Part shown: positions 2,557-15,874 of the stretch, piece by piece
How the letters are laid out: every line of letters begins with the position of its first letter
How positions within the stretch are numbered: position 1 is the first letter of the stretch
Source of the DNA: a virus
DNA: 21,293 bases
Strand: one strand, 5' to 3'
Virus record (IMG/VR): IMGVR_UViG_3300043313_001159
Span: 1-21,293 of that record
Translations under genes and position numbers: made by a program
The notes under the pieces: model-generated
What the model was told of the DNA's origin: nothing
Seen by the model: only the letters and a program-made list of their open reading frames with translations
Databases searched by the model: none

Positions 2557-4020
2557 CTACACCCACCGGGTCCCGTCCCACCAGGACATGTTCTTCGGCA
2601 CCGGGCTCCCGGCGCTCGTCGCAAACGCCCCGATGATCGGCTCGTTGTACTCGACCTTCAGCCACACCGCGTCGACGTTGTAGGGGTTCGCACCGCTGAT
2701 GGCGGTGACCTTGATCGTGCCCGCCTTCGCGGTCGTGGACCCCAGCGCTCCTGCCGACAGGTTGAACTCGAAGTCCCGCGGGGTGGAGCTCGCCGGGATC
2801 ACCATGCTGTACGCAGTGGTGTCGCCTGCGCCGAACGCCAGGGTCATGGTGCCACCACCCGGCATCACCACCCGCGCGCCCATGGTCATCTTGGTGACCG
2901 TCGCGTAGTCGCTGATCGAGTTGAAGTTCGCCCCCACGTTGACGGTGATGACGTTCCCGATGGTTGCGTAGGTCACGTCCGGCGCACCGAGGATGTTGTT
3001 CGGATTGGTGATGCTGTTCTGGCTGGCGATCGTCAGGCCGTAGCCGGTCATGACACCGGACCCGGCACTGATCCAGATGTCACCGACCGCAGGGTCGGCC
3101 GGTGCCGTCTTCGAGACGGTGGTCTTGCTGCCCCCGCTGCCGCCTCCCGCCGGGCCGGTCGGACCGACCAGACCCTGGGGTCCGGTGGGTCCCGGAACAG
3201 TGCTGGCCGCTCCGGTGGCACCAGTAGCGCCAGTGGAACCTGCGGGTCCAGTCGGCCCCAGCAGACCCTGCGGACCGGTAGGTCCGGTGTCGCCCTTGGG
3301 TCCTGAAGGACCAGTGGCCCCGGTCTCCCCGACCGCGCCCAGCCCGGTCAGTCCTTGAGGACCGGTCGGACCTGGCAGACCCGTCGGGCCGGTGCTGCCG
3401 GTTGGCCCGGTCGCTCCGGTCGCACCGGATGTCCCCGGCACTCCCTGCGCACCGCTGGGGCCCTGCGCTCCTGGTGCTCCGGCGGGGCCTGTGGGGCCGA
3501 CCGCGCCTTGCGGGCCCGTGGGTCCCACCTCACCGCCGCCAGTGCCCCCACCCGTGCCTGCGGGTCCCTGCGGTCCCGTCGGACCGGTCGCGCCGACCTG
3601 TCCGGGCACGCCCTGCGGACCCTGGACGCCCTGTCCGCCCTGGGCTCCAGCGGGTCCCGACGGGCCGGTTGGTCCGGGCACTGTCGAAGCAGCGCCCGTC
3701 GCCCCCGTCGGGCCGCTGGTCCCTCGCGGTCCGGTTGCGCCGGTCGGCCCCGTGACCGTCGACGCCGCGCCCGTGGCACCCGTGGGTCCGGTGGATCCCG
3801 TGGGTCCCGACACCGTCGACGCTGCACCTGTCGGCCCGGTGCTGCCGGTGGGTCCCGTGGATCCGGTGGGTCCCTGCGCACCGCTCGGTCCTGAGGGTCC
3901 CGAGGGACCGGTCGGACCCCGCGGACCGGGGACCCCGACGCCCACGTCGGTGGACACCGCGCCAGGCGTGAGGACCTCCAGGTCGAGCGCCAGCTGCTCG
4001 CCGACCACGATGTCAGTCAT
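2557..4020 (-). CDS. collagen-like tail fibre protein
   Basis: The 487-residue product has three parts. Residues 1-31 are a non-repetitive head that probably attaches to the tail tip. Residues about 32-294 are Gly-X-Y triplets dominated by GPTG, GATG and GPQG, expected to form a collagen-like triple helix, broken by a Gly-rich patch (about 155-165) and four AASTV interruptions. Residues about 295-487 are Thr/Val/Gly-rich and beta-like, ending in a tryptophan-containing motif (SWWDGTRWV). Such proteins usually form trimeric fibres or decorate tails and may bind the host. The ATG at 4020 follows the previous stop after one base. The antisense strand is open only because of the repeat composition. 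Confidence 0.85.
3139..3927 (-). repeat. Gly-X-Y coding repeat tract
   Basis: Nearly 800 bases encode collagen-like triplets. The DNA consists of short degenerate GGN-CCN-ACN-type units rather than exact long repeats. Slippage or recombination here could change fibre length by multiples of nine bases without breaking the frame. Confidence 0.8.
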
Positions 4021-14047: not shown

Positions 14048-15178
14048 TCACGCGCCTGCAGAAGCCTCGACGAGCGCGGCCGGACGGGTGACCACGGTCT
14101 TGCATCGGGTCTCGGCCAGGGCGTCGAAAATATTCTCGGCCCAGTGGGTGCCGTGAGAATCCGTGACATAGAGCACCACACTGTTGCGTCGGTAGTGCTG
14201 GACACCGGCCCGGAAGTCGCCGACCGTGACCGTCCCCTCGGCAGCCGCGGGGTCGTGCACGATGGTCAGACCCCAGTACGGATCGCCCCGGAACATGCCC
14301 ATCGAGGCGATGTCGATGTCGACCGCGTCGTTGGGGTGCACGATCGCTGCGTTGGCGTTGAAGCCAGCCGCCTCGACCGTCGCCATCCCGGCCCTGATGG
14401 CTCCGCTCACACCGGAGCCTGCGGGACCCGTCACCGTCGGCAGGGTGGCAGCAGCCACCGCGGCCTTGGCCTCGGCCTCGACCTTGCGGGACACCTCGCG
14501 CTGCAGCTCGCCGTTGATGAACGAGCGGACCGCGGGAGCGTCCTCGGCGAGCTGCCGGGTGAAGCTCGTGCGACCAGCGATGGTGTCGAGCGAGGACGAG
14601 GTGACGTCCGGCTCCCACTCCAGCTCCGGCTTGCTGGCCTTCTCCGGGACGACCGCGGCGGCACCGGACTTGAGGGTCCAGACGATGTAGTCGATCGCGT
14701 TGGTCGAGACCGTGACCACGTTGGTCAGCGGGATCAGGATGCTCCGCGGCTCCGGAGGCGACAGGTCGTAGACCGGCATCGAGGGAAGCGCGTCGGCCAT
14801 CGAGACCAGCGAGTGCGGGAGCGCCCGCTCCTGCAGCTCGATCTCGTACTTGCCGGACGTGCCGCGGTGCGGCCACTCCATGAACTGAGAACTACGGATG
14901 AACTGCTCGCCCCAGTCGAGCGGGCGCTCCTCGGTGGTGACAGCGGCACGGCGCTGGGTGGACTTGGCCATCCGGCCGTCGAGGGCGTCGGCCGCGGACT
15001 GGGCGTCCATCAGCTTCACGAGCCGCTCGATCTGGCCGTCGAGGTTGGTGCCACGCTCTTCGAGACCCTTGAGGGCGTCCGAGCCGGGGTCGTAGTCGTC
15101 GGCCTCGATCAACGCAAGGGCTGCGGATCGGACCTGGTCTCGCTCTTCACGCAGGTGGTTCAGGACATCAGCGGACAT
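14048..15178 (-). CDS. major capsid protein, HK97 type
   Basis: This is a 376-residue protein. Residues about 1-90 are helical and charged, like the scaffolding delta domain removed by the prohead protease. The remainder has the HK97-fold pattern: a central IPLTNVVTVSTNAIDYIVW region, KPELEWEPDVTSSSLDTIAG, a helix with FINGELQREVSRKVEAE, and AAIVHPNDAVDID before the C-terminal strands. It assembles the icosahedral shell. The ATG at 15178 has AGGAGG eight bases upstream, which lies in a strong predicted hairpin (15183-15227). The frame continues upstream to 15211 without a better start. Position after the protease supports the call. Confidence 0.85.
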   Translation of the reverse strand: MSADVLNHLREERDQVRSAALALIEADDYDPGSDALKGLEERGTNLDGQIERLVKLMDAQSAADALDGRMAKSTQRRAAVTTEERPLDWGEQFIRSSQFMEWPHRGTSGKYEIELQERALPHSLVSMADALPSMPVYDLSPPEPRSILIPLTNVVTVSTNAIDYIVWTLKSGAAAVVPEKASKPELEWEPDVTSSSLDTIAGRTSFTRQLAEDAPAVRSFINGELQREVSRKVEAEAKAAVAAATLPTVTGPAGSGVSGAIRAGMATVEAAGFNANAAIVHPNDAVDIDIASMGMFRGDPYWGLTIVHDPAAAEGTVTVGDFRAGVQHYRRNSVVLYVTDSHGTHWAENIFDALAETRCKTVVTRPAALVEASAGA

Positions 15179-15182
15179 GGGA

Positions 15183-15227
15183 AGCGCCTCCTGGGACGCT
15201 CGCAGGATCACGAGCGGGGGAGGCGCT
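15183..15227 (-). promoter_or_regulatory. hairpin that buries the capsid gene ribosome binding site
   Basis: In the minus-strand transcript AGCGCCTCC (15227-15219) pairs with GGAGGCGCT (15191-15183), nine pairs. Inside it CGCTCG (15216-15211) pairs with CGAGCG (15202-15197), six pairs, with an eight-base loop. GGAGG in the 3' arm is the capsid gene Shine-Dalgarno, four to eight bases from the ATG. There is no U-tract. It may act as a translational switch, RNA processing site or stabiliser. Confidence 0.65.
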
Positions 15228-15268
15228 GATGCGTCGGGTGTGCGCCTACTGCAACTTCGGCGGCCGAC

Positions 15269-15282
15269 GGTTCACCTGAACC
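15269..15282. repeat. 14-base perfect inverted repeat
   Basis: GGTTCA-CC-TGAACC lies in the 129-base gap between the protease and capsid genes, with CGAC and GTCG further out. It could be a small hairpin or an operator-like site upstream of the capsid gene. No promoter motif was seen next to it. Confidence 0.4.
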
Positions 15283-15307
15283 GCTGTCGTCGACCAGGCT
15301 ACGCCAG

Positions 15308-15874
15308 TCAGTGGTTCCAGGCGAGCGCCCGCATCCTGCGCGCCTCACGCTCGGCCTCGACGGCGTCGGCCCCGCGCACGCTGGCGACCATGGCGTGCTC
15401 GGCGTAGGCACCGTGATCGACGAGCGCGACACCGAGCAGGTACGCCTTGCTGTGCCGGACGTGGAGCCCGTCGGCTCGGCGCTGCACCTTCATCCAGTCG
15501 GCCATCGGCCGGAACGTGATCGAGCACTGGTCGAGCGACCCGTCGAGCGCGAGCTCGCGAGCCTCCTCGCCGTTGGCGGTGTTGGAGAACTTCGCGTTGA
15601 TCCACAGCCCGTCAGCGCGGTCCTCCACGTTGAGGGCGTGGCCGACCAGCGGGCCGCCGTGCCGGTGCCACATCTTGGTGCGGTGCGGGGCCTTCGAGGC
15701 CGAGGCGAAGGTCTTGGGCTCCATCAGCTCCCAGATCTCGTGGTCGATCTGCGCCTCCACGCCGTACGGCACAGCCCGCATCAGGATCGTGCCCTTCTCG
15801 ACGTCGACGGCCTCGACGTCGGCGACCCGCTCCTGGACGCGGCGGTACCGCTCGGGGATCAGGGCGTCGTTCAC
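15308..15874 (-). CDS. prohead protease, HK97 family
   Basis: This is a 188-residue protease. A HRTKMWHRHGGPLVGHALN segment carries the catalytic His (about 70-72), and LDGSLDQCSITF carries the nucleophile Ser118. This is the usual pattern of the U35/S78 prohead proteases that trim the capsid delta domain. The order portal, protease, capsid supports it. The start is GTG 15874 with AGGGGG upstream, overlapping the stop of the small basic gene (GTGA). Next to the nucleophile, Cys117 replaces the more usual small residue, which is worth noting. Confidence 0.9.
   Translation of the reverse strand: MNDALIPERYRRVQERVADVEAVDVEKGTILMRAVPYGVEAQIDHEIWELMEPKTFASASKAPHRTKMWHRHGGPLVGHALNVEDRADGLWINAKFSNTANGEEARELALDGSLDQCSITFRPMADWMKVQRRADGLHVRHSKAYLLGVALVDHGAYAEHAMVASVRGADAVEAEREARRMRALAWNH

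Follow-up and report, generated by a model that had tools for sequence, protein, structure and literature searches.

Conservation of a predicted hairpin that pairs the Shine-Dalgarno sequence of the major capsid gene in a phage family

Hairpins that inhibit translation at ribosome binding sites are already a known kind of element in phages. The product of T4 soc is a capsid decoration protein. In phages MS2 and R17, coat protein binds an operator hairpin and represses the replicase, and the letters of the loop matter for this interaction. According to the portions of the T4 work used here, hairpins at the ribosome binding sites of e, soc, 49 and I-TevI lower initiation, and for gene e the hairpin has a 100-fold effect and late promoters remove its 5' arm (PMC3014915). 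The excerpts on actinobacteriophages that we drew on describe SAS as near-identical 13-bp motifs repeated at many genes of cluster K mycobacteriophages and Microbacterium phages of cluster EF (PMC3203893, PMC7302621), and 17-bp inverted repeats with invariant letters in cluster O mycobacteriophages, 34 copies of which occur in Corndog (PMC4351075). In the open-licence literature, which was covered incompletely, we found no description of an inhibitory hairpin on the major capsid gene of a tailed phage.

The capsid gene and the hairpin before its start

The DNA analyzed here (the window) is one virus record of 21,293 bases, and its late genes lie on the minus strand. Its host is probably actinobacterial, to judge from composition and distant phage relatives. 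The features at the capsid start, with SD for Shine-Dalgarno, are as follows.

14048..15178, minus strand: major capsid protein gene, ATG start at 15178-15176, 376 aa; phrog_10 major head protein, E 6e-18
15183..15191 (15191-15183), minus strand: 3' arm of the outer stem, GGAGGCGCT; from sequence, fold and an exact 9-nt inverted repeat
15187..15192, minus strand: SD sequence AGGAGG, 8 nt 5' of the ATG; its GGAGG (15191-15187) is wholly paired in the predicted fold
15197..15203, minus strand: 3' arm of the inner stem, GCGAGCG, from the predicted fold
15210..15216, minus strand: 5' arm of the inner stem, CGCTCGT, from the predicted fold
15219..15227 (15227-15219), minus strand: 5' arm of the outer stem (anti-SD), AGCGCCTCC; from sequence, fold and an exact 9-nt inverted repeat
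15308..15874, minus strand: prohead protease gene, Pfam PF04586 Peptidase_S78, E 2.4e-9; stop codon at 15310-15308

The capsid protein had no Pfam match at 1e-3, and its relatives align at the same start. Between the end of the protease gene and the capsid ATG are 129 nt. Genes for the portal (PF04860), head-tail connector, tail terminator and tape measure were also found among the late genes, plus an integrase gene. A further minus-strand ORF of 487 aa (2557-4020) carries long Gly-Pro-Thr collagen-like repeats and is probably a tail fibre gene.

A sequence-only reading of the window had placed the whole GGAGG in a nine-pair stem enclosing a six-pair stem, and these pairs and their coordinates were right, the strand being minus. 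In the 9-bp outer stem, GGAGG pairs fully with CCTCC across a 27-nt gap, and the inner stem consists of six Watson-Crick pairs and one U-G pair. Folded alone, the hairpin reached -28.1 to -28.2 kcal/mol (z -5.0 to -6.0), a value equalled by none of 200 shuffles. It persisted in the fold of a 184-nt stretch from the protease stop into the capsid gene, which is unremarkable overall (z -1.56). The cost of opening the SD was computed at 14.3 kcal/mol, and when the 46 nt upstream were shuffled with the SD side fixed, 1 of 200 shuffles matched the window in how tightly the SD was closed.

Since such hairpins are picked by eye by a reader, stability against shuffles alone is insufficient. Moreover, loose pairing is frequent by chance in GC-rich DNA: among 61 other genes from the contigs compared here, 38 have at least five upstream pairs in the SD zone, and the same is expected in 28 of the 37 family members described below after context shuffling. 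Therefore, an observation in a single sequence does not suffice, and the comparison with relatives is decisive. Indeed, several family members, each taken singly, are unexceptional in SD closure; with their 5' context shuffled, 107 (L017), 59 (L012) and 51 (L019) of 200 shuffles closed the SD as well. The rule of at least five pairs was judged uninformative and replaced by a fixed-window z-score and swap tests.

Pairing across the capsid gene family

The capsid protein matched 344 of 50,697 phage records, all of them distant (<60% identity), and two scans of bacterial genome contigs revealed no relatives. In IMG/VR, successively wider alignments raised the number of loci from 5 to 26 and finally to 49. 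Scanning with a DNA pattern of the hairpin added L033 and L084, contigs that the widened alignment later reached too. The pattern scan returned 58 stretches, and those directly before an ORF of >300 aa were capsid genes of the family, except for L080, where the match precedes a 357-aa ORF and the hairpin lies within a longer frame. The comparison set was drawn from the window and IMG/VR contigs and comprised 37 non-identical start regions of capsid genes, from a family with 41-76% identity. Left out were near or exact duplicates (L011, L021 and L026, of L010, L020 and L025), entries from the same contigs as earlier ones or with upstream regions identical to theirs (L002-L006, L013 and part of L109-L155), a gene cut at its 5' end (L027), a locus too close to the contig end (L149), L032 (25% identity, match from residue 144) and L156 (23% identity). 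Capsid starts were picked manually near the aligned N-terminus, and those with an SD were preferred.

A hairpin with a paired SD zone is predicted in 36 of the 37 members. It is missing in the lineage of L137, four records with identical upstream regions (L137, L138, L140 and L141), which presumably makes capsids without it. Relatives without pairing, set beforehand as the outcome refuting the sequence-only reading, were seen in just this one of the non-identical members. The median fixed-window z-score was -2.52 at capsid starts (26/37 at or below -2) and -0.11 at other genes of the same contigs (3/61 at or below -2). In the swap test, the pairing of each 5' stretch with its own 3' stretch was compared with its pairing with the 3' stretches of relatives, using preset windows and no selected structure. 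The native arms paired better than expected in 34 of 37 capsid regions (p 2e-9) and in 20 of 61 other genes (p 0.998); as the sequences are related, all p-values overstate independence. L007, L008 and L012 failed the first swap test and were counted as failures; the likely cause is that their hairpins are short and fall partly beyond the fixed windows. A strict automatic rule for compound hairpins accepted 22 of 23 capsid starts in the first set of relatives, whereas among the other SD-bearing starts on those contigs it accepted 6 of 50; in cultured phages, it accepted 9 of 57 SD-bearing non-capsid starts. The median cost of opening the SD was 8.7 kcal/mol for 19 capsid genes, a set from which the window, L015, L031 and L033 were lost in ORF filtering, versus 4.9 kcal/mol for 47 other genes.

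Several pair types occur at all six positions of the inner helix and at SD positions 2-4 of the outer helix. At SD position 3, for example, we counted C-G 29 times, G-C three times, U-A once and U-G once, with three members unpaired, in predicted folds, which bias such counts towards pairing. The inner stems vary from CGCTCG/CGAGCG in the window to CACGC/GCGTG (L007), GCACTC/GAGTGC (L024) and GCGTCG/CGACGC (L031), and the outer stems track changes of the SD, as in GGAGG, GGGG and GGAC, each with its complement. The loop measures 4-14 nt across members, and neither its sequence and size nor the internal loop is conserved. Covariation in the same gap of related phages had been proposed as a check: at the level of the family, pairing is kept across widely differing letters, whereas in the close group the effect is small, as the stems are nearly invariant and the one pair with a double change was reached by 28 of 500 shuffles. 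This weak close-group covariation is not our main argument. Judged by these sequence comparisons, the hairpin is a real, conserved RNA element.

A covariance model built from nine members had the capsid-start hairpin as its sole match within the window. Among 28 sources, two of which (L027 and L032) have no readable start, it found 20 capsid starts at E <0.05, including the duplicates L011 and L021. One more match below 0.05 was the reverse strand of one such capsid start, and the others up to E 1 were reverse-strand or weak. The model missed L007, L008, L025, L026, L028 and L029, whose letters differ. When up to 3 mismatches were allowed, the motif of the 5' arm matched 12 times, versus 15.96 expected, in this record, which may be a fragment. 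Rfam gave no match up to E 5 in window positions 14900-15500 and none at the gathering score in 7 further loci.

A simple 8-bp stem, CCTCCGAG/CTCGGAGG, buries the capsid SD in 4 of 17 cultured phages examined from the 344 matching records: the Gordonia phages Upyo, Mahdia and Gustav and the Nocardia phage NS-I. This count was made by reading these stems; the automatic compound rule rejected all four simple hairpins and accepted Armstrong and FlameThrower. In the remaining 13 phages the capsid SD was mixed or open. The IMG/VR relative L106 has a 7-bp version of the simple stem. Since the covariance model does not find the simple hairpins of Upyo, Mahdia, Gustav and NS-I, their common origin with the compound hairpin is not established.

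Two further observations concern the protease-capsid boundary in other phages. In L089, L090, L095, L103 and L106 (Gordonia/Nocardia phages), an extra TCGGAG is located where the protease gene ends or close by; by pairing with the anti-SD arm, it could release the SD in an attenuator-like alternative fold. The Arthrobacter phages Galaxy, Abidatro, Maja and Leona (L093, L104, L101 and L097) have a terminator-like hairpin just 5' of the capsid start, followed in the first three by a T run.

The leader and the probable role of the closed start

The distance from the protease stop to the capsid ATG is 120-189 nt in the members where it is readable. In the window, this leader contains a candidate promoter.

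15296..15301, minus strand: TAGCCT, a -10-like TANNNT just past the protease stop; candidate capsid promoter

A TANNNT is present at -230..-80 in 32 of 37 members versus 15.0 expected from shuffles, with a recurrent -10-like site about 120-190 nt 5' of the ATG, often TACGCT or TACCGT; the -35-like signal at a spacing of 17-18 is weak. The site past the protease stop may thus be the capsid promoter, located upstream of the whole hairpin. In many members the TANNNT is followed by GCGGTTA or GCGGTTTT, a candidate promoter or leader motif. In the hairpin region itself (-80..-19), this sigma-70-like pattern, the only one scanned for, was found in 0 of 37 members versus 8.0 expected.

Two other functions of the region were considered and rejected. 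An intrinsic terminator would require a T run, which is absent after the window hairpin (TCCCATG follows the arm); in L023, a member of the family, five T precede the ATG. As for a leader peptide or translational coupling, the protease ends 120-189 nt upstream and no SD-bearing leader ORF is conserved across the family. A TTG with AAGGA lies 57-65 nt 5' of the ATG in L014 and L016-L020, followed by a short LRTSPA/LLTSPA frame running into the hairpin; it occurs in 6 of the 20 members listed, and the reading frames differ between them. The leader of the window also contains a second hairpin, GGTTC-AGGT-GAACC (15288-15266), which in L009 reads GGTCC-AGGC-GGACC, with one U-A to C-G exchange.

The direct observations are the pairing, its position at one gene and its conservation through sequence change. 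The reading that we favor, and consider probable, is that the leader hairpin acts in cis by occluding the SD and keeps capsid translation low by default, selection acting on the pairing and not on the letters. What appears to be selected is the occlusion of the SD, as the pairing is kept while loops and letters are not. At the computed opening costs, initiation would be rare at equilibrium, as expected for a gate that needs opening. In vivo, the hairpin would lower the initiation of capsid translation, and late in infection something would open it. Since the candidate promoter precedes the entire hairpin, both arms would be present on capsid transcripts, and the opener would therefore most simply be RNA processing or a trans-acting factor. 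The sequence-only reading had taken the closed capsid start to be maintained and hence probably regulatory, and the pairing in 36 of 37 members and its survival through extensive sequence change agree with this. The routes of opening that it put forward, an RNase, a protein switch or a tie to head assembly, would be candidates.

In operons transcribed by the host polymerase, promoters and SD strength are usually considered to set when and how much capsid protein is made. This picture is at odds with a closed start, kept through sequence turnover, before the gene of the most abundant virion protein. Capsid protein is needed in large amounts, which makes strong closure by default a paradox unless an opener is known. 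The simpler version in the cultured Gordonia phages Gustav, Mahdia and Upyo opens the question to a bench test in a laboratory host. Rather doubtful is a broader generalization, in which a closed-by-default capsid hairpin in a wide set of tailed phages would be opened by processing or an assembly-linked signal and would delay capsid translation or match it to head assembly; its letters would evolve fast, and two or more capsid lineages, about 25% identical, would have gained or retained it.

Tentatively, the hairpin could instead serve the stability or processing of the mRNA, by shielding the 5' boundary of the capsid mRNA or by being cut by a double-strand RNase, which would free the SD and give the capsid mRNA its own abundance. 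The hairpin lies at the boundary between a gene of low need (protease) and one of high need (capsid), its long helix is kept while the loops vary freely, and the four Arthrobacter phages have their terminator-like hairpins at the same boundary. This is an argument from position, and a shield could do without the SD, whereas the stem includes the SD zone in all members but one.

An autogenous switch, in which free capsid protein or a capsid-protease complex would hold the hairpin shut until assembly withdraws the protein, seems unlikely. It would be consistent with a hairpin found at the capsid gene only, in one copy in the window, and analogous to RNA operators of the repressor type, but the lack of conservation in the loop and internal loop is unusual for a specific protein site, and the loop variation disfavors a protein that reads the loop as MS2 coat protein does.

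We regard timing of the T4 type as quite unlikely. The hairpin would then serve to silence read-through transcripts, with capsid mRNA that lacks the anti-SD made from a late promoter located within or just past the 5' arm. The anatomy is the same, with the SD buried by an upstream arm, and T4 e offers a precedent in the part of the source used (PMC3014915). However, the -10-like site recurs far upstream and TANNNT is absent from the hairpin region, which makes escape through an internal promoter unlikely as far as that pattern goes, phage-specific promoters of another type being outside the scan.

Very unlikely is an inverted repeat that functions at the DNA level, for example as a protein operator, and overlaps the SD by coincidence: inverted repeats have been reported ahead of gene starts in phages of clusters O and EG, but in the excerpts used these keep their letters and occur in many copies per genome, whereas here the letters change, the pairing stays and the window has one copy. 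Finally, a by-product of GC-rich sequence and an unavoidable GGAGG, with no selected structure, is hardly credible, since it is contradicted by the z-score and swap tests, in which other genes from these contigs served as controls, common as chance pairing of the SD zone is.

Comparison with described hairpins and repeats

The MS2/R17 operator resembles the capsid hairpin in being a hairpin at a phage translation start that is tied to the coat protein. It represses the replicase and not the coat gene, however, and the loop is variable here.

The inverted repeats of cluster O, considered above as an operator-like alternative, likewise occur in actinobacteriophages. In contrast to the repeats as presented in the excerpt, the window hairpin is single-copy and its letters change with the pairing kept. 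SAS and ESAS are also elements at actinobacteriophage translation starts, and the extended form has inverted repeats upstream, according to the sections consulted. Compared with that account, we found one copy at one gene with varying letters, in a record that may be a fragment, and not a repeated motif.

The closest likeness in kind is with the hairpins of T4 e, soc, 49 and I-TevI and of Aeh1 mobE, where, in the portions of the source used, the SD and/or the start codon is paired at the start of a phage gene. In the predicted folds the SD is likewise paired in a helix in the window, as is the SD zone in 36 of 37 members. Compared with T4 e as described there, the hairpin region has no promoter-like TANNNT (0/37) that could act as a late promoter. 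Compared with the T4 hairpins of that account, the gene here is the major capsid gene, and the letters of its hairpin change widely across the family.
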